A model generated the notes under the pieces. The model saw nothing but the letters and a program-made list of their open reading frames with translations. It was not told where the DNA came from and searched no databases. The position numbers and the translations under genes are program-made. This document shows, in pieces, positions 12,499 to 23,360 of a stretch of DNA of 23,360 bases. The stretch is from positions 1-23,360 of the IMG/VR virus record IMGVR_UViG_3300046313_000479. One strand, written 5' to 3'. How positions within the stretch are numbered: the stretch's first letter is position 1; every line of letters starts with the position of its first letter. Source of the stretch: a virus.

Positions 12499-12664
12499 AA
12501 ACCTCGTAAGTCATTGACCTACGAGGCTAATTTATGGAGCGGGTAAAGGGAATCGAACCCATCTATTAGGGGAAAGTAGGGGAACATAGGGGCATAGTTT
12601 ACCTCTGTAGGGGGTCAGTTCGTTCCCCCTGATTCCCCTAATTCTTCCCCCGATTCTTCCCTGA
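12466..12664. other. attP: Phage attachment site attP with tRNA 3'-end core
   Basis: The core at 12535-12560, read on the - strand, is GGGTTCGATTCCC plus a 7-base acceptor strand and TCCA: the T-arm and 3' end of a tRNA. U before CCA and the acceptor sequence suggest tRNA-Gly. The matching 5' half of the tRNA is absent. Repeats of TTCCCC/GGGGAA surround the core: two at 12470-12486 on the left, GGGGAA at 12570 and 12580 plus TAGGGG at 12587 on the right, then inverted copies at about 12622, 12632, 12644 and 12655. These look like integrase arm sites. Having arms and phage genes on both sides identifies attP; an integrated prophage would have them split between attL and attR. Confidence 0.85.
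12491..12526 (-). terminator. Rho-independent terminator of the late (- strand) operon
   Basis: 12502-12510 pairs with 12518-12526 over 9 positions with one G-U wobble, around a 7-base loop. On the - strand the hairpin is followed by TTTTTATTTTT. It ends leftward transcription of the lysis genes before it can run into int. On the host chromosome it would also lie just after the tRNA 3' end, so it may act as the tRNA terminator there. The hairpin alone could also hinder rightward transcripts. Confidence 0.8.
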
Positions 12665-15285: not shown

Positions 15286-15513
15286 TCAAACTTCTACTGT
15301 CACAGGTGTCAACTGCGGTGCTGTGCCTTCAATCACGCCGTCACGGATAAATACCTGCTCAGACACGGCGAAACCCTCACCTCGAACCCGTACCTGAGCA
15401 CCGCCAGGGTATGCCACTGTACAAGTGCCGTCAGCATGATCTGCGGCAACAGTCGCTATGGTTAGCGGGGTTTGTGGCAGTAGCTCAAGCAGTTGCCGAA
15501 ATACGTTTGTCAT
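15286..15513 (-). CDS. Small tail-associated protein, probable OB-fold
   Basis: 75 aa. VTIATVAADHADGTCTV, then GGAQVRVRGEGFAVSEQVFIRDGVIEG, is a compact beta-rich pattern seen in small proteins at the end of tail operons of Burkholderiales prophages. The start overlaps the stop of the 613-aa protein (ATGA), so it is made together with it. It could be a baseplate or hub component. The function is inferred from place only. Confidence 0.68.
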   Translation of the reverse strand: MTNVFRQLLELLPQTPLTIATVAADHADGTCTVAYPGGAQVRVRGEGFAVSEQVFIRDGVIEGTAPQLTPVTVEV

Positions 15514-17351
15514 AGGTGTCGCTCCAAGGTTGCAGATTGTCGAACGCGGGATATAGGCTCGTTACCACCTTTGCTGGTGCAAGAAACCTCAATACTGCGA
15601 ACTCGCCCGCGCCACGGTGAAGACTCGTTGACTTGCACCAACTTGCCGACATCAATGACACCTGGCTGGCCAGAGCCCGTCAACACTGGCAACTCAAGTA
15701 CCGCATGCTCTTTGGCACCCGCTGTGCCCAAAATACTCAAGCCCCGCTGTGTGGCAGCGTCAACGTGAGTTATCAGCGCATCAGCTTGCATAGATGCGAG
15801 TTTTGCACCCGCAGTGCCTGCACGCTTGACCAGTGCGACAACACCTTGATTTGTGCCGGTAATGTAAACCCCATCTACGTCCGGCCCGTCTTTGTCCTCT
15901 TTGGAACTTGTGATAACTGCGTCACTTGCCAGCTCAATGTCAACGGCAGATGTGCCCCAATTCCACGGGCCACCGGGCACGCCGCCAGGTAAAAGTGGGT
16001 ACGGGTGTCGAACTTGCAATGTTGGCAATGATCGGTGACTTTGCAAATAGCCACCTGCAGCTTCTGCCACACGTTGCACTGCGCTGAGGCGCGAACCTGT
16101 ATGACTCCAGGCACCGGTTGGCACGAGCCAATCTGTGATTCCCCAGTCGAGCCCTACGCCCGACAAATCAAGCGCATCAGCAGCGAGCTGTTGGGCAGTC
16201 ATACTTGTGCTATTGGTGTAGCTACTGTCGCGCACCCACGGGGCACCCGTCAGCGCAGTGACGCTGCGACCCGTGATCGAAACGCCGTGCTTACCAAAGC
16301 TGTGAGTTCTACGTCGAGTTTCGACAAGGAAAACCCACTCAAGACCGTCGATGACAAGCTTGAGTTGCACAGGCAATGCACTTGTGCGCGCGAGTTGCGT
16401 GAACAGGCTTTCCGGCCCATTGGCACTGAAGCTCCAAGCGAAACTGCCGACATCTGCACTTAATGTCGCGTTGTAGATCGGGACATTTGCCATGCTCGGC
16501 AGTAATTGCGCATACACGTTATGGACTGTCATATAAACCCTTGCTGGCAAAATTACAAATTCAGCACCACTGTTGCCACCCGTGCAACGCGACACCCCAA
16601 ACCCGATAGCGATATTGCTAAGCCAGCCGTTCGACGGATACACCTCACAAAACACCAACGGCACTTGCACCACTGGCACAAGCACTACAGGCGCAGCGCC
16701 CCGCACATCAAACACACCGCCGCCAAACGACGTTAGCGTTTGCGCTTGCTGCCATGGCGCGATGCAGTGCTGTACCGATTCAGTGCTTAAAAGCTGCCAC
16801 GGCGTAACCATCACCACCGCCGCGTGCTTGGCCGGTTGCCACGGTGCATCTAAAAAACGATCTGTCGCCAGCAGCGTTTGCCACGGTACGGTTTTAATGT
16901 CGCTATGTGCCGCAGCCTGATGCCACGCTGCCACAACACCTAAGCCCGCCAAGTCACGCTGCACGCGCCACGGCACGATCAAGTCGTCACTGTGCGGCGA
17001 GGCTGTGTCGTAGGCAATGGCGACGTTTGCATTGGCCACTTCAAAATCCATGATCCAAGGTGCTGCAAAATGCACATGCTCAGTCGTCGCACTGCGCATA
17101 GGTACAACCTGCACCACAGGTAGCAAAGCCGCCTCTTGCCAAGGGGTTGCCAATATTTCAGCACGTGGCTTTGCAGGCATCCAAGAGCAGGCCACCAAAG
17201 TGCTTGCCCCCCTGTAGATGCCTGTCACTGGGTCAACACCGTTCGGGTCTTCGACCTCCACCCCATCCATGCCAAACACCAGCACCACCACAGGGTTCGG
17301 CCCTGCATGCGCCGTGGCTGGCTGACTAAAGACGATGTTTTGGATGGTCAC
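15510..17351 (-). CDS. Phage tail protein (hub-like) with Trp-anchored 14/15-residue repeats
   Basis: 613 aa, GTG start, 17 bases after the previous stop, with no strong ribosome binding site. Residues 1-50 form a small beta head. Residues 57-205 are a striking array of about 10 repeats of 14 or 15 residues, each beginning with Trp (or Met/Tyr) and ending in Pro, as in (A/T/V)PWQ. From about 215 the protein becomes beta-rich, with a domain at about 285-375 (VYAQLLPSMANVPIYNATL, SFAWSFSANGPES, LKLVIDGLEWVFLVE) and an alternating alpha/beta part up to the C-terminus. I recognise the whole as an uncharacterised tail protein of Burkholderiales siphophages, likely part of the tail tip. Confidence 0.8.
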   Translation of the reverse strand: MTIQNIVFSQPATAHAGPNPVVVLVFGMDGVEVEDPNGVDPVTGIYRGASTLVACSWMPAKPRAEILATPWQEAALLPVVQVVPMRSATTEHVHFAAPWIMDFEVANANVAIAYDTASPHSDDLIVPWRVQRDLAGLGVVAAWHQAAAHSDIKTVPWQTLLATDRFLDAPWQPAKHAAVVMVTPWQLLSTESVQHCIAPWQQAQTLTSFGGGVFDVRGAAPVVLVPVVQVPLVFCEVYPSNGWLSNIAIGFGVSRCTGGNSGAEFVILPARVYMTVHNVYAQLLPSMANVPIYNATLSADVGSFAWSFSANGPESLFTQLARTSALPVQLKLVIDGLEWVFLVETRRRTHSFGKHGVSITGRSVTALTGAPWVRDSSYTNSTSMTAQQLAADALDLSGVGLDWGITDWLVPTGAWSHTGSRLSAVQRVAEAAGGYLQSHRSLPTLQVRHPYPLLPGGVPGGPWNWGTSAVDIELASDAVITSSKEDKDGPDVDGVYITGTNQGVVALVKRAGTAGAKLASMQADALITHVDAATQRGLSILGTAGAKEHAVLELPVLTGSGQPGVIDVGKLVQVNESSPWRGRVRSIEVSCTSKGGNEPISRVRQSATLERHL

Positions 17352-17368
17352 AACAGGAACCCGACAAG

Positions 17369-17641
17369 CTACCCAGTAACCACACGGTCAACCACCACCG
17401 CGTTGTATTGCGCCGTGTCGTCAATGCTCAACACCAACCAAGACCCCGCTTTAATCTTTTCAAACGCATAGCTACCGCCCACACTACGGGTAGCAGCCGC
17501 CACATGCAGCGAGTCTTGCTCAAGCAGGTAAACAGGTCGCTCAGCCGCAGCGGTCAACACCTTGACCGTGCCCGTCACGCTAAACTCACCACTAAACCGT
17601 GACCAAGTGCCGATAGCGCGTTTAGCCAAAGCTGTCGTCAT
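17369..17641 (-). CDS. Small tail protein with carboxypeptidase-regulatory-like fold
   Basis: 90 aa from the ATG at 17641, which overlaps the previous stop (ATGA); a TTG two codons earlier is unlikely. Visible: SGEFSVTGTVKVL, RPVYLLEQDSL, then GSYAFEKIKAGSWLVLSIDD and YNAVVVDRV. The G-x-Y-x-F-x-x-(I/L)-x-x-G-x-(Y/W) turn is that of a seven-strand beta sandwich like the CarboxypepD_reg or transthyretin fold. It probably decorates or links tail-tip proteins. Short but clearly in the operon. Confidence 0.72.
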   Translation of the reverse strand: MTTALAKRAIGTWSRFSGEFSVTGTVKVLTAAAERPVYLLEQDSLHVAAATRSVGGSYAFEKIKAGSWLVLSIDDTAQYNAVVVDRVVTG

Positions 17642-18699
17642 GTCCAAGCCTCTTCGTCTATGGCGATGGCTGTAGACACAGCATAGCCAGCACCCACATT
17701 CAGCGCCACCGTTTTAGCCCGACCACTAACGCCTGCTAAATTGGCATAGGTATCTAAAAACGAACCCGCGAGGGCGTGGGGTATCAATTTATAAACATTC
17801 GGCATCACGCCACGCATCACATTGTCAACTGCCTGATGCACTGTACCGTAAGGTATGAGGCGCAAACCATCTGCAATCACACTGGGCCAAGTTGCAGTAC
17901 CTTGGCTACCTGTATCCAAATTAACAATTATCGCACCGGCAGCGCCGGCATGGTTTCGCGCCAACCACCTATTGCTCTGCAGCGATATATAAGTCGAATA
18001 AGTATCACCCACCTTGACTTGCTCAGCCAGATCGCCAAAAAATAACGGCACCAATGAATAATTGGCCGCCACCGCATCTGCCATGGCAAAAATCATCCAT
18101 TTGTCAGTTGCAATAACAAACCATGGTGAATTAGACGCGGCTGCGTACTCAATGTTGCCAATAGCAAACGCCGTAGAATCCTGCGCAGTCGTCGGAAACA
18201 ACCCCGTCCCCGTACTAATAGCCGTCATTGCCTCATACCCACGCGCCACAAGGTTGGCATTCACCGCATGCACACATCGCAAATACCGGCGGTTGCCAGC
18301 AGGCGGGCGAAATACTGCCGTTGTGGTGTTGCTATAGGGCTTTGACCAACCCGCAGAAGCCTGCTTGATGGTGATACCCGCACCACTGGAGCCAACCACA
18401 CCGTCTGCCAAACCTGCAATAGCAATCGTCACTTGGTTGCTGGTATTGGCAATTACCCGATGCTGACCGTTAACAATGGCGGTAGACGACACCGCCACTT
18501 GGACAGTTTGCAGCGCCTCAAAGCCGGGGTCTGTTGCAAAATTCAGCGTCAAAATACCGCCGCTGGCTGACGCGCTGGTGGCTGTTTTGGTGTTGAAGCC
18601 ATTGACCAAGCACGCTTCTAAAATGGCGTTGATGTTGCCGTTGGAATTGGCATACTGCGGCGCTCCCGCCATGCCGCTGTGAATGTAGATAGGTTTCAT
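17638..18699 (-). CDS. Phage structural (tail) protein
   Basis: 353 aa. It starts MKPIYIHSGMAGAPQYANSNGNIN and contains LEACLVNGFNTKT, a beta domain (about 45-115, GILTLNFATDPGFEALQTVQVAVSS and VTIAIAGL), WSKPYSNTTTAVFR-P, RYLRCVHAV, and a C-terminal region with WMIFAMAD and LVPLFFGDL. The pattern fits a conserved tail protein of Burkholderiales prophages with no assigned role; it may be a tail-tip or fibre-attachment protein. AAGA before the ATG is a weak ribosome binding site. Confidence 0.7.
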   Translation of the reverse strand: MKPIYIHSGMAGAPQYANSNGNINAILEACLVNGFNTKTATSASASGGILTLNFATDPGFEALQTVQVAVSSTAIVNGQHRVIANTSNQVTIAIAGLADGVVGSSGAGITIKQASAGWSKPYSNTTTAVFRPPAGNRRYLRCVHAVNANLVARGYEAMTAISTGTGLFPTTAQDSTAFAIGNIEYAAASNSPWFVIATDKWMIFAMADAVAANYSLVPLFFGDLAEQVKVGDTYSTYISLQSNRWLARNHAGAAGAIIVNLDTGSQGTATWPSVIADGLRLIPYGTVHQAVDNVMRGVMPNVYKLIPHALAGSFLDTYANLAGVSGRAKTVALNVGAGYAVSTAIAIDEEAWT

Positions 18700-18723: not shown

Positions 18724-21700
18724 CTAAGCGTCAATAGCGCCACGTACTTCAATCAAAATCTGATCATTTCCCTGCGCACCCGGTTGCGATTGCTCTACTG
18801 TGCGAGCGCACCATGCGGGCAACACTGCGCCGCGTGTATTAAAACGCAACACATTGCCTGCCGACCAGCCGCCACCAAAACCTGCAGGCTGCATGGTGAA
18901 CATGGCAACGCCGGTTACAGGGTTCACAGGTGACAACACAGTAGCCGTGCTGCCCGTGATCACCTCACCCCGCGTTTCACCCACCAACCTGAAGGTGGTG
19001 CTACTGGTAAAAATCAGCGCCCACAACTGAGTGATCGCACCATCATTGCTGACAGCTATCGGGTAAGTGGTCTGGTCATACTGTGCCAAAATTGGGCTAC
19101 CAATGCGCGTGTCAGACCACTCGTCCGTCCAAGCCAACTGGCTAAACGATTGTGTCGCCCCCGCCTGCAGCGTGCCACCTAGCAAAACACTGCTGACATA
19201 GCTTTCATCTGCAGGGTAGTTGTGCGCTAAAGGGCGCAGCAGTTGCACCGTGCCGTCAATCAACACATCAGCGCACAGCGCCTCGGTTTCAATGCGGCTT
19301 TGCACGGTAACGGGCTGTGAATAGCCTGTGACGTTGCTGAACGACACCGTGCCAGCGTCCAAGTTTTTAGTAAAGCCGTTGACTATCTCAAGGCCATCTG
19401 CACCATACACTTTGAGCCAGCTCAACAGCAAGCGACCTGTGTTGATCGTGGTGCTATTGGTCACCGTTTGCGGCGCTTCGTCTTTGGTGTGGTGTACCAC
19501 CACCACGCGGCTGCGTTTGAAAATAGCCACTCGACCATCTTGCGGCAGGCGCACAGGGTCAACGCCCAACACTTCTTCGCTCAGCGGCAGGTAGGTGTAG
19601 GCCACGGCGGTGTAGCGCAGGGCGCTTACGGCAATGGCGTCAGGCTTCCAAATCTGCCCGCCAACCACAGCAGCGGCGTTGTACCACGGCTCGGCTTCAT
19701 TACCCGCCGCTGTCACTATCGCACCAAAGTTCAGCCGAACAATGCCGGTTTGCCAGTCCACCAAACCGACCACGCCTGTGGCCATAATGCTGCCATCAGG
19801 TGCAGCGTTGATGGTTTGCACCCCACCTGTGGCGCGTGAGAATTGAATCGACAATGAGCTAGGCTTCAAAGGTGCAGCCGCCGTGCGAAACACAAACTCG
19901 CTGGACAACATTTCGCCCGCCACACTCACCGCACTATGTCGGGTAAAAGCGTTTGTCGAATTGCTTGGCCAAGTGGTCAACACGCCCGTGGCATTGGTGT
20001 ATGACACCGTACCCCGCGCCAGCCATGCACCGCCAATGTACGTCCGCAGCACACCCAAGCCATTGTCCGCAATGTATTGCAGGTCTACACCCGCTCCCAC
20101 GCTCAGCAACACACTGTTTGGCAGTAAAGCAGGCTTCACGTTGGGAATAATGTCCAAACTTGGCGCAAAGGTGACAACACTGTTTTGCGACGCGCCACCC
20201 GCAGCGCTGTTGTAGCGCAGAACCACGCGACCACTGGTGTCGTTGGGGTACAGGCTCGGGGCATCCACGTAGCTGATGCCTGAAAAAGCAATGCGCCATG
20301 TAGTCGCCGCAACTTGGTTGCCGACCTCATAATTGGGCACGGGTATGGCTACTGTCACATCGGGGTTGAATGTGACAATGCCGGTGGCGTAGGCGACTGT
20401 TCCAATGTTTACACCGTTCAGCACCACATTGCCAGCGCCATCGTCTCGCGCAATGTGAGTAGGGTCTACACCAGTAAAACTGACATTACCCGGCGACGCA
20501 GGCTGCATCAAGCCCATGGTGATCAACTGAAATCTAGTGTAAGTACCAAGCACAGCTTCACTGGTCAACGTGTCCCATTCAACTTCTAGTGAATTAGGTG
20601 TGATCGCGCCTAGCGTGGCCGTCACTGGCACTTGACCGCCGCCGTTACGGGCAGGGTGTGCAAAGGTGTCTACCTGTTTGGGCGCATCGCTGTAGGCAAT
20701 GGTCAACTGCGCACCGATGGCAGGCATCATATTGGGGGCAAACACAATCTCGCGCCGAGCATAGCTGACTTTGCCGGTGGCAGAGCCTACCAACAAACCG
20801 CTTGCGTCTGTCGCTGTCAGATCGCCGCCACCCGCAGGGTTTGGCCAAGTGATAGTGATCGTGCCAGGTGTGAGCGCCAACGTACCCGCAATGGTGATAG
20901 TTTGCTGTGCTTTTAGCACCGCGTTAGGCCACTTGGTTTCTTGCGTAGCGCAACCCCAAGCAATCATCACATGCGAGCCAATATCGGGCAGCGCACCGAG
21001 CGACGCGCTTAAAAACCCGCCCTCATAGTTCACCTGCCCCGCACCCACTTCAGCGCTGCTGCCGCGCAAACCGCCACCCGAATCATCAGCCAGCACGTAC
21101 CAGCGGCCACCCGCCATGTATGACACCGACACCGAGCCAGCCATAGGTGCAGGGTCTAAGAACACTGCATAATTTTGCGCACGGTTGTTCACCGTCACCT
21201 CAAGTCCACTGGCCTGTGGCGCACGTACAGCAGTGCCTGCAGGCTTGTAGCTACCGGCTGTTGTCGTCAAACTCACCCCTGTAAGCAGTGTGGCAATGCC
21301 CGCGTCGTAATCAATCACACCCACGTCCGCACCCGCAAGGCGCAGTTTGCCAGCAAGGTCTGTCACCACGCCTGCGCTGGTGGTCACAGAAAACGAGCTA
21401 GGGTAGCATGCACCTGGTAGTTGTAAATTGGTGGCATCTGTCCAAGTGGGCTGCGGCGTGAATGCAATCGCTGTGCCAGAGTTAATGCGCAAATTGGCAG
21501 GTGGCGTGGGGTCGCGGTTCAACAGTACCGTTTCCACTTGGCTGCTAGGTAGCAGTTGCTCAAAAATAGAAGTGGCCTTCACCGACAAATCACCCAGCAC
21601 CCCAGCCACCGCCAACTTGGTCGTGCCGTAATACTGCGCAGCGTCAGCCACCACGGTTTCGCGTATTTTTGTTTTGCCAGTGTAGTCAATGCTTGCATCC

Positions 21701-22326
21701 AGTCGAACCGCCTCAAAACCATCAAAATCAGCCGACAGCGATGTCGAAATGCCGCACGTCACTTGGTTGCGGCCGAAGTCGCCACTCTCATACGTGAAAG
21801 AGCGTTCAACCACTGACACAGCGGTGATCTGTACAAACTGGCTCACCTCTGTCAACAAACCTTCGTTTTTGATCAAATACAACACATCACCGACCACGGG
21901 TGGCGTGGCCTCTACCCGCTGCAAAAAGATAACCGCCGTCATGCCGGCCAAGTGGTTGCCATACAGCAGCCCGGGGTAAGTGCCACCAGGGGCGAGGAAA
22001 GAAGACATTTTCTTGACCGCATCGACCCGCGTGTCGTCTGGGTATTGCGGCGAAAACAGCAGCGCATGCACCTTGGGGTCAGCGGGCGGCTCGGCGATCA
22101 TCAGCCGGGCACCCATGTACTTATCCGTACCCGAAGCAACCACCGCCGCACCAAACTTGCGCAACTGCACATTGCCGGTAACTCGGCTCAGGGGGTCAAC
22201 GTCGTCGAAAAGGTTGTTATCAACCCCGCTCTGTAGCACATTGCCCGTCAAGCGCCCACCACCGTCGGAGTTGTCGGTGTTTCGCTCGGCGGCTAGGATT
22301 TTGATGTCATTTGAGGTGATTGGCAT
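18724..22326 (-). CDS. Large repeat-containing tail protein
   Basis: 1200 aa, the largest gene in the window. The N-terminus (MPITSNDIKILAAERNTDN, DGGGRLTGN, NNLFDD) is recognisable from tail proteins of Burkholderiales prophages. From about 330 to 870 a motif recurs six times (about 330-350, 420-450, 507-540, 628-660, 754-788, 842-868), each with a G-x-(V/I)-x-(Y/W)-x-x-G-(I/V)-like turn followed by a hydrophobic strand, as in GTVAYATGIVTF and GLVDWQTGIVRL. It is beta-rich and probably a trimeric or ring-forming tail-tip protein that sits above the 613-aa protein. The start ATG at 22326 is preceded by a hairpin leader and lacks a close ribosome binding site. Confidence 0.82.
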   Translation of the reverse strand: MPITSNDIKILAAERNTDNSDGGGRLTGNVLQSGVDNNLFDDVDPLSRVTGNVQLRKFGAAVVASGTDKYMGARLMIAEPPADPKVHALLFSPQYPDDTRVDAVKKMSSFLAPGGTYPGLLYGNHLAGMTAVIFLQRVEATPPVVGDVLYLIKNEGLLTEVSQFVQITAVSVVERSFTYESGDFGRNQVTCGISTSLSADFDGFEAVRLDASIDYTGKTKIRETVVADAAQYYGTTKLAVAGVLGDLSVKATSIFEQLLPSSQVETVLLNRDPTPPANLRINSGTAIAFTPQPTWTDATNLQLPGACYPSSFSVTTSAGVVTDLAGKLRLAGADVGVIDYDAGIATLLTGVSLTTTAGSYKPAGTAVRAPQASGLEVTVNNRAQNYAVFLDPAPMAGSVSVSYMAGGRWYVLADDSGGGLRGSSAEVGAGQVNYEGGFLSASLGALPDIGSHVMIAWGCATQETKWPNAVLKAQQTITIAGTLALTPGTITITWPNPAGGGDLTATDASGLLVGSATGKVSYARREIVFAPNMMPAIGAQLTIAYSDAPKQVDTFAHPARNGGGQVPVTATLGAITPNSLEVEWDTLTSEAVLGTYTRFQLITMGLMQPASPGNVSFTGVDPTHIARDDGAGNVVLNGVNIGTVAYATGIVTFNPDVTVAIPVPNYEVGNQVAATTWRIAFSGISYVDAPSLYPNDTSGRVVLRYNSAAGGASQNSVVTFAPSLDIIPNVKPALLPNSVLLSVGAGVDLQYIADNGLGVLRTYIGGAWLARGTVSYTNATGVLTTWPSNSTNAFTRHSAVSVAGEMLSSEFVFRTAAAPLKPSSLSIQFSRATGGVQTINAAPDGSIMATGVVGLVDWQTGIVRLNFGAIVTAAGNEAEPWYNAAAVVGGQIWKPDAIAVSALRYTAVAYTYLPLSEEVLGVDPVRLPQDGRVAIFKRSRVVVVHHTKDEAPQTVTNSTTINTGRLLLSWLKVYGADGLEIVNGFTKNLDAGTVSFSNVTGYSQPVTVQSRIETEALCADVLIDGTVQLLRPLAHNYPADESYVSSVLLGGTLQAGATQSFSQLAWTDEWSDTRIGSPILAQYDQTTYPIAVSNDGAITQLWALIFTSSTTFRLVGETRGEVITGSTATVLSPVNPVTGVAMFTMQPAGFGGGWSAGNVLRFNTRGAVLPAWCARTVEQSQPGAQGNDQILIEVRGAIDA

Positions 22327-22406: not shown

Positions 22407-22799
22407 TTAAACCTCAATGAACCTGATGTTCACAATGTAATAGTCACCACTTACCGTCTCTCGGTAGAAGACCAGTGGGTAAGCTTCAAACGCCGTCTTC
22501 TCATGGTCAAAAACAACAGAGTGCGTCACACCTCGGTAAACCAGAGTGAGGGCGATGCCTGGCAAACTGGCCCAAGTTTTGATCTGGTCACATATCGCTT
22601 TTGTTAACCACGCTTGGTCTTCTGTGTTGTTTAGCGAGATCGGTCGGCCAGCTTGCTTCATTGCGGACTCGATCAGCAGGGCACCTGTCGTCGTGAACTC
22701 GCTAGATTGGACAATGGGGTGCCAATCGTATTCGTCCGACCAGATCATGTCGTCAGGCAGGGTGACAGTCACCGCGTTGTATGTCAAAGTTGTGCTCAT
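22407..22799 (-). CDS. Phage tail protein
   Basis: 130 aa. It has a beta-strand start (TLTYNAVTVTLPDDMIWSDEYDWHP), then TTGALLIESAMKQAGRPISL, a helix with Trp (DQAWLTKAICDQIKTWASL), and a strand-rich end (LTLVYRGVTHSVVFDHE, DYYIVNIRFIEV). The arrangement is that of a small tail-tip or hub protein common in siphophages of Burkholderiales, encoded directly after the tape-measure gene. The first residues (MSTTLTYNAV) follow a short leader with GAGG-type sequence about 10 bases before the ATG. Confidence 0.75.
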   Translation of the reverse strand: MSTTLTYNAVTVTLPDDMIWSDEYDWHPIVQSSEFTTTGALLIESAMKQAGRPISLNNTEDQAWLTKAICDQIKTWASLPGIALTLVYRGVTHSVVFDHEKTAFEAYPLVFYRETVSGDYYIVNIRFIEV

Positions 22800-22813: not shown

Positions 22814-23360
22814 TTACCGTCCCGCAGACCGGGCACTTTGTTTGAATGCATTGACCAAGTTTGCCGCGCTTTGTGCGTCCGTGTTCACCGGATAGGTGTT
22901 ATCGCCAACTTGGATGTTCACGACCCTTGCACCCCCGAGTGATGGCGCACTTGTTGGGTTAGTAGCGCCAGTCGGGTTGGTGCCAGTAGGTTTCGCCTGT
23001 TGCAACTCTTTAAGTTTTGTCGCATTTAGATAATCCTTGATTCGGTTTGCGACAGCCTTGAACTCCAACATTTGAAGGTTTGCCGCAGGCGTTGCGTATG
23101 ACGGGTCAAGGCGCAACGCAGACTCGTGTGATCTCGCGTTGTCGTTGATGTCAAGCATTACTGCCTTCAATGTTGCAGGGTCAACACTTGACAAGTCGTT
23201 GCCCCGCTTTAGTAGGTCTAACACCCTAAACAATGCACTGTTGTCAAGCAATGGGCCACCTTGCAGCCCTGAGCTACCGTCTTTAGGTCTACCGTACTTG
23301 TCGTCCAAGAGCTTTCTCAACTTAATGTCACCATCGGTCGGCGCACCTCCACCTGAATCA
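22814..23360 (-). CDS. Tail tape-measure protein, C-terminal part (cut by the window edge)
   Basis: The frame runs open to the right edge: the first 180 or so visible codons have no stop, and an apparent TTG start at 23320 is not used, since the frame continues with DSGGGAPTDGD upstream. It ends in a helical part (LLKRGNDLSSVD, DYLNATKLKELQQ), a Pro/Thr/Gly linker and ARVVNIQVGDNTYPVNTDAQSAANLV-NAFKQSARSAGR. That last pattern, a V-N-I-x-(V/I)-G strand plus a helix, is the usual C-terminus of tail tape-measure proteins. It sets tail length and its C-terminal end meets the tail tip. Confidence 0.68.
   Translation of the reverse strand, partial: DSGGGAPTDGDIKLRKLLDDKYGRPKDGSSGLQGGPLLDNSALFRVLDLLKRGNDLSSVDPATLKAVMLDINDNARSHESALRLDPSYATPAANLQMLEFKAVANRIKDYLNATKLKELQQAKPTGTNPTGATNPTSAPSLGGARVVNIQVGDNTYPVNTDAQSAANLVNAFKQSARSAGR

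Follow-up and report, generated by a model that had tools for sequence, protein, structure and literature searches.

The window, the whole 23,360-base stretch of a viral record analysed here, carries replication genes on the plus strand, an integrase, and lysis and tail genes grouped in a minus-strand module. Within the tail module, a gene with a GTG start (15510..17351, minus strand, as for all tail genes and features below) encodes a 613-aa tail protein that matches PHROG 6079, annotated 'tail protein', from residue 66 to residue 612 (E 2.1e-96), a span that takes in both an array of aromatic-anchored units in the N-terminal part and a predicted tail hub domain behind it. Directly after it comes the gene for a 75-aa small tip protein (PHROG 5076; 15286..15513); upstream of it lie those for a 92-aa protein (phrog_27013; 17369..17647), a 353-aa tail protein (phrog_9998/9600; 17638..18699), a 1200-aa tail protein (phrog_6128; 18724..22326) and, before the 1200-aa gene, a 130-aa protein (phrog_4408; 22407..22799). 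The order 130 aa, 1200 aa, 353 aa, 92 aa, hub, 75 aa matches a hub-type tail module. In Stenotrophomonas phage S1 the major tail protein and one more gene precede the tape measure, behind which stand genes for 138 aa, 1201 aa and 344 aa, the hub and a small protein (lengths taken from coordinates), and the slot equivalent to the 130-aa gene comes after the tape measure gene; the window record stops before any tape measure gene, and the order from tape measure to hub is seen in S1. Slots near the 353-aa gene are occupied in relatives by genes with lectin, SPRY or FG-GAP annotations; by analogy, the 353-aa protein is possibly a receptor-binding candidate.

The 613-aa protein can be read from its N-terminus as follows. 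Two 'LVF' strand motifs (NIVF...VVLVFG, residues 4-27; 17271..17342) stand before the array and have a counterpart in nearly all homologues. A probable start cap, Y-R-G (residues 46-48; 17208..17216), is assigned in the window by its spacing: R47 lies 10 residues ahead of W57, as in homologues, where the cap pattern is Y-x-x-x-x-x-R-[PG]. Eleven aromatic-anchored units then occupy residues 57-208 (16728..17183), delimited from the sequence, the homologue alignment and the PHROG match. A second pair of strand motifs (VPLVFCEV ... NIAIGFG, residues 229-253; 16593..16667) separates array from hub; AF2 places strands there at 233-237 and 248-252, with low confidence. The N-terminal extension as a whole is residues 1-262, and the hub domain residues 271-613 (15513..16541).

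Structure prediction assigns residues 271-613 to the tail hubs of the T4 gp27/Mu gp44 type. The AF2 model, built from 47 homologues, has pLDDT mostly above 90 in this domain; Foldseek returns hits with E down to 2.8e-17, and VIA-align gives Z 23.2 to Agrobacterium phage Milano (8fqc), 21.9 to Mu (9ki1_G) and 18.4 to T4 (1k28_D). The whole fold is held in common with T4 gp27 and Mu gp44 (1k28, 9ki1, 1wru) and with the Milano protein, at Z 18-23 over 287-299 residues, and the modelled domain has the two tube-like barrels and the cup domains of such hubs. The gene has the corresponding position as well, after the tape measure (in S1) and before a small tip or spike gene (PHROG 5076 in the window). 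Mu gp44 starts at what is residue 277 of the window protein and has no counterpart of residues 1-270 or of the array; everything earlier in the window protein is therefore extension. Pfam and NCBIfam searches gave no domain for either array or hub.

Among hub homologues, two carry a PHROG 5076-type sequence, like the 75-aa tip protein, fused to the hub C-terminus (L012, L030), and in two others (L005, L026) the hub frame breaks in its C-terminal third and continues in another frame, through sequencing error or a real frameshift.

The original prediction had described ten units of 14,14,14,15,14,15,14,14,14 and 15 residues, each opening on Trp, Met or Tyr, and these fall exactly where it put them, at W57, W71, M85, W99, Y114, W128, W143, W157, W171 and W185. 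The ten units occupy residues 57-199 (16755-17183, minus strand), not 57-205, and the array includes one anchor more, W200 (WQQA), the eleventh and likewise in register. That most units end in Pro holds for the window, where PW stands at 7 of the 11 anchors, but not for the family, in which Pro (19%) is less frequent than Arg (23%). Trp with another Trp at +14 or +15 was matched in 0.05% of 20,000 shuffles of the protein, and shuffling the region 5,000 times never reached the observed periodicity; the window array alone finds PHROG 6079 with E 1.1e-4. There are no DNA tandem repeats within the array, which is thus not a recent duplication. A search of PDB sequences with the full profile and with the cleanest array found no match. 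Two candidates were set aside: ThiP, with weak matches (E 0.001-0.07) far below the cut-off that are attributed to composition, and a lectin neck found by sequence in PDB (E 0.015), which splits into domains each with E of at least 9.

The array is a feature of the family, for which one scan returned 288 relatives. It occurs in viral contigs, in a Burkholderiales genome and in cultured phages, and is often far cleaner there than in the window, as in L063: SHWQDAAPVRSSTESKWQDSVRLRAVVAARYQDG... Cultured members of the family are Stenotrophomonas phage S1, Marinobacter phage AS1 and Psychrobacter phage Y8A. By an alignment-free anchor-chain score, 76 of 83 non-redundant homologues beat every shuffle; the ends of these chains overrun into the flanks, so the anchor numbers they give (mode 12, perhaps including the start cap, with many chains longer) do not serve as counts of units. 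Aromatic autocorrelation, which also needs no alignment, was pooled over 56 non-redundant N-terminal regions: at lags 14, 28 and 42, aromatic pairs are 3.1, 2.8 and 2.15 times as frequent as expected. The family unit consensus is [R/P]-[WFYH]-Q-[D/E/Q]-[A/G]-x-[P/R]-[L/V]-R, with [WFYH]-Q-x-[AG] as conserved core. The combination of an even period and highly variable interiors, the heart of the first description, is thus borne out family-wide, interior identity being 18%. In four members (L081, L089, L021, L003) the anchor is largely His (RHAHG..., VHQVA...), and the period is still about 14 residues.

Length varies far less than sequence. When 63 homologues (27-52% identical to the first sequence) are aligned, anchors fall at columns 91, 105, 119 and so on to 231, at a uniform spacing of 14, and 11 units are kept. 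The array is framed by a start cap (Y75 in 88%, R81 in 96%) and an end cap (P237 and G240, each 96%), and the cap-to-cap span is 156-161 residues in 62 of the 63; a pattern search with no alignment puts the last anchor 156-160 residues after the start aromatic in every homologue with two canonical caps. Gaps make up a fraction of 0.0012 of the array and 0.0235 of the hub, and the insertions in the array are concentrated at five places. Even in distant members (S1, L018, L065, L084), Trp ladders fit eleven positions over 142-143 residues, non-Trp anchors being counted by position; the window ladder spans 143. One homologue, L027, has apparently ten anchors, so that eleven is not absolute. The original prediction had left room for a variable repeat number; in alignment and pattern checks alike, the number stays at 11 almost without exception. 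The errors in spacing are lopsided: 13-residue steps are rare and those of 15-16 tolerated, and aromatic autocorrelation is 0.64 times expectation at lag 13 against 1.27 times at lag 15, so that one-residue losses are rarer than gains.

The units alternate in type, and the true repeat is of 28-29 residues. Mean unit similarity (BLOSUM sums) is 11.2 for units two apart against 5.7 for adjacent ones, and up to lag 6 the even lags score above the odd ones. When unit order was permuted jointly across all sequences, p was 0.002 for all units with the full profile, and 0.076 for interiors alone. Pro at +5 tends to mark odd units, Arg at +5 and +7 even ones; in L018, L065 and L084 the spacing itself alternates 14,15,14,15.

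Interiors change fast. Mean pairwise identity is 0.177 for array interiors, 0.424 for anchor cores and 0.464 for the hub. In 20 non-overlapping close pairs, omega is higher in the array than in the hub in 19, with medians of 0.22 and 0.07. The array is thus less constrained than the hub but not positively selected; the suggestion that its exposed residues change quickly holds as to rate, dN being about 3.7 times that of the hub, and fails as to positive selection.

The array is also exchanged between phages with near-identical hubs. L015 and L016 have DNA 99.1% identical from the hub start on, over 3.7 kb, and arrays only 27% identical. In this pair, and in L141/L150 and L032/L070, hub and downstream DNA are near-identical and the N-terminal half is unrelated; a sharp intragenic recombination boundary lies near the start of the hub domain. 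The N-terminal motifs belong to the exchanged block, and so, often, does the gene preceding the hub. In L051/L052, however, the array is kept and the upstream gene replaced, and in L079/L080 and L031/L037 the array is changed and the flanks are more alike; no partner is therefore singled out. Co-exchange of array and upstream DNA would fit contact with other tail subunits, although linkage alone could produce the same pattern. A match of the array to one upstream gene was considered and rejected: the DNA correlation falls with distance (0.88, 0.62, 0.29), for which linkage could suffice, and the pairs are non-independent.

As to what the array looks like, two AF2 runs, on the window protein and then on L092, whose array aligns in register nearly free of gaps, gave array pLDDT of 25-47 and no confident secondary structure, so that on these models the array may or may not be the solenoid or strand-turn array first proposed. 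Free variation in repeat number, common in solenoids if not strictly required, is not seen here, the count being nearly fixed. Disorder of the whole array together with irregularity in homologues had been named as what would overturn the proposal; the low confidence is there, whereas regularity in homologues is very strong. Family-mean hydrophobicity has a period of two (permutation p 0.046 for the 2-residue share), an alternation absent in the window protein; on this sequence pattern one may lean towards extended strands, as an inclination and not as a result. A coiled coil was discarded, as period 3.6 has no power and a weak helix at 173-201 of L092 reaches only pLDDT 42-47. With alignments this good, low pLDDT argues, in our judgement, against a self-folding domain, which usually predicts better; near-fixed length argues against a free linker. 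The two together favour structure that appears only with partners, although low AF2 confidence as such fits disorder equally well.

One way to understand these properties is to regard the array as a measured part in tail-tip assembly, which it probably is. The form of this idea that we favour, with somewhat less than an even chance of being right, is a partner-dependent belt of measured length tying the hub trimer to other parts of the tip. The hubs gp27 and gp44 are established trimers, and the window hub may by analogy be one as well. A central hub of this type at the end of the tail tube would then carry, on its N-terminal extension, eleven aromatic pegs; each aromatic, with its Q-x-[A/G], would dock in a small pocket, provided either by neighbouring tip subunits or by the arrays on the two remaining hub chains; about 14 residues would be the least length that spans two adjacent pockets; and the array would fold only inside the assembled tip. 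Pockets, partners, extended shape and trimer are what we infer in this scheme, and the arithmetic of 12 anchors on 3 chains, giving 36, is allowed no weight in it. A belt that spaces pockets should tolerate insertions of one or two residues, seldom lose one, keep a count of 11 and leave the residues between pegs nearly free. The near-fixed count and length, the asymmetry of insertion and loss, the alternation of units, the low confidence of the monomer, the hub fold and the exchange of arrays all support it. A tight fit of the array to one neighbour draws no support from the three mismatched pairs, L051/L052, L079/L080 and L031/L037. The LVF motifs that flank the array could moreover pair with each other, making of it a returning excursion instead of an outgoing strap, and this counts against the belt.

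The main rival keeps the constraint and changes the geometry: the three N-terminal arrays would fold together into a trimeric beta structure (a spiral, a solenoid or a hairpin stack, built of 28-residue repeats) and give the tip a short, rigid collar or stem. The 28-29-residue super-repeat at fixed length suits this proposal, as does the preference of 61 of 63 homologues for hydrophobics at alternate positions outside the anchor core, and general experience with fibres is that monomer prediction can miss an obligate trimer. Yet AF2 predicts no strand in the array, the two-residue harmonic is marginal in the family and missing from the window protein, and shafts of the adenovirus kind vary in repeat number (PMC7248032), as the array does not. 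We judge such a stem rather unlikely.

A third possibility dispenses with fixed structure: an intrinsically disordered multivalent linker, its evenly spaced aromatics acting as stickers with weak affinity for the host surface or for many partners. Low pLDDT in both models is in keeping with this, as is an interior rich in A/R/G/Q/S/P at a mean identity of 18%; such linkers vary in length, however, whereas here the count is near-fixed, deletions are almost absent and units differ by parity, which makes the linker quite improbable. Least probable of all is the example preferred in the original prediction, a receptor-contact surface diversifying under host pressure, as may be imagined from the fast interiors and recombinational exchange, since median omega lies well below 1, length is near-fixed, the Q-x-[A/G] core is conserved, and the lectin- and SPRY-like annotations of relatives fall in genes just before the hub and not in the array.

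Comparison with other systems separates what is known from what is newly seen. Hub and family are known: PHROG 6079 and 1887 (S1 gp21 and relatives) are the same family, annotated merely 'tail protein'. What is added here is the aromatic ladder of counted units on a hub of the gp27 type; a search of open-access papers turned up no account of the array. The tape measure proteins of TP901-1 and p2 likewise carry regular Trp/Phe in a siphophage tail protein, with a period of 11 or 18, and several of their repeats can be deleted, and one replaced by alanine, with little effect (PMC5099701); the array differs in its period of 14 (28), its near-fixed number and its place in the hub, the tape measure being a separate gene in S1. 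The adenovirus fibre shaft has a 15-residue repeat that builds a triple beta-spiral in a trimeric attachment part, its repeat number varying between types (PMC7248032); the period is close to the 14-15 of the array, but the consensus differs. The hubs of siphophages JBD30 and LSH1 are trimeric at the tail tip and bear phage-specific additions, and the available portions of those reports mention no 14-residue aromatic array (PMC11445458, PMC13243795). A stretch with nearly free letters and a length counted to the unit is unusual, and here, in a large family, is a plainly constrained region that defeats current structure prediction. An undescribed fold or assembly, in which three chains bear eleven pegs each as 5.5 repeats of 28 residues, together fasten the hub to the remainder of the tail tip, and are exchanged by phages as a belt cassette of constant length, seems to us somewhat unlikely. 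Should the belt or the trimeric stem prove correct, it would show how siphophages that have Mu-like hubs and no obvious hub of the lambda or T5 type build a tip, and how adjacent tail genes can be swapped so freely.

A few minor features complete the picture. Two hub homologues (L012, 2849-5230; L078, 2298-4511) have other N-terminal repeats, SFSAxLDDFTGxF and AVDFDLPSYTPPxWDAV, as if a different repeat module replaced or preceded the array. The 1200-aa protein of the window contains five similar 'VxY..xG.V' segments (VIDYDAG, KVSYARR, TVAYATG, TVSYTNAT, LVDWQTG), probably repeated domains. An ORF at the end of the record (22814-23359) matches a macro domain weakly, at E 0.008 and below cut-off. 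Short tandem repeats with periods of 9-12 lie at 12567-12661, in the gap between the integrase and lysis genes, a possible regulatory or attachment region.
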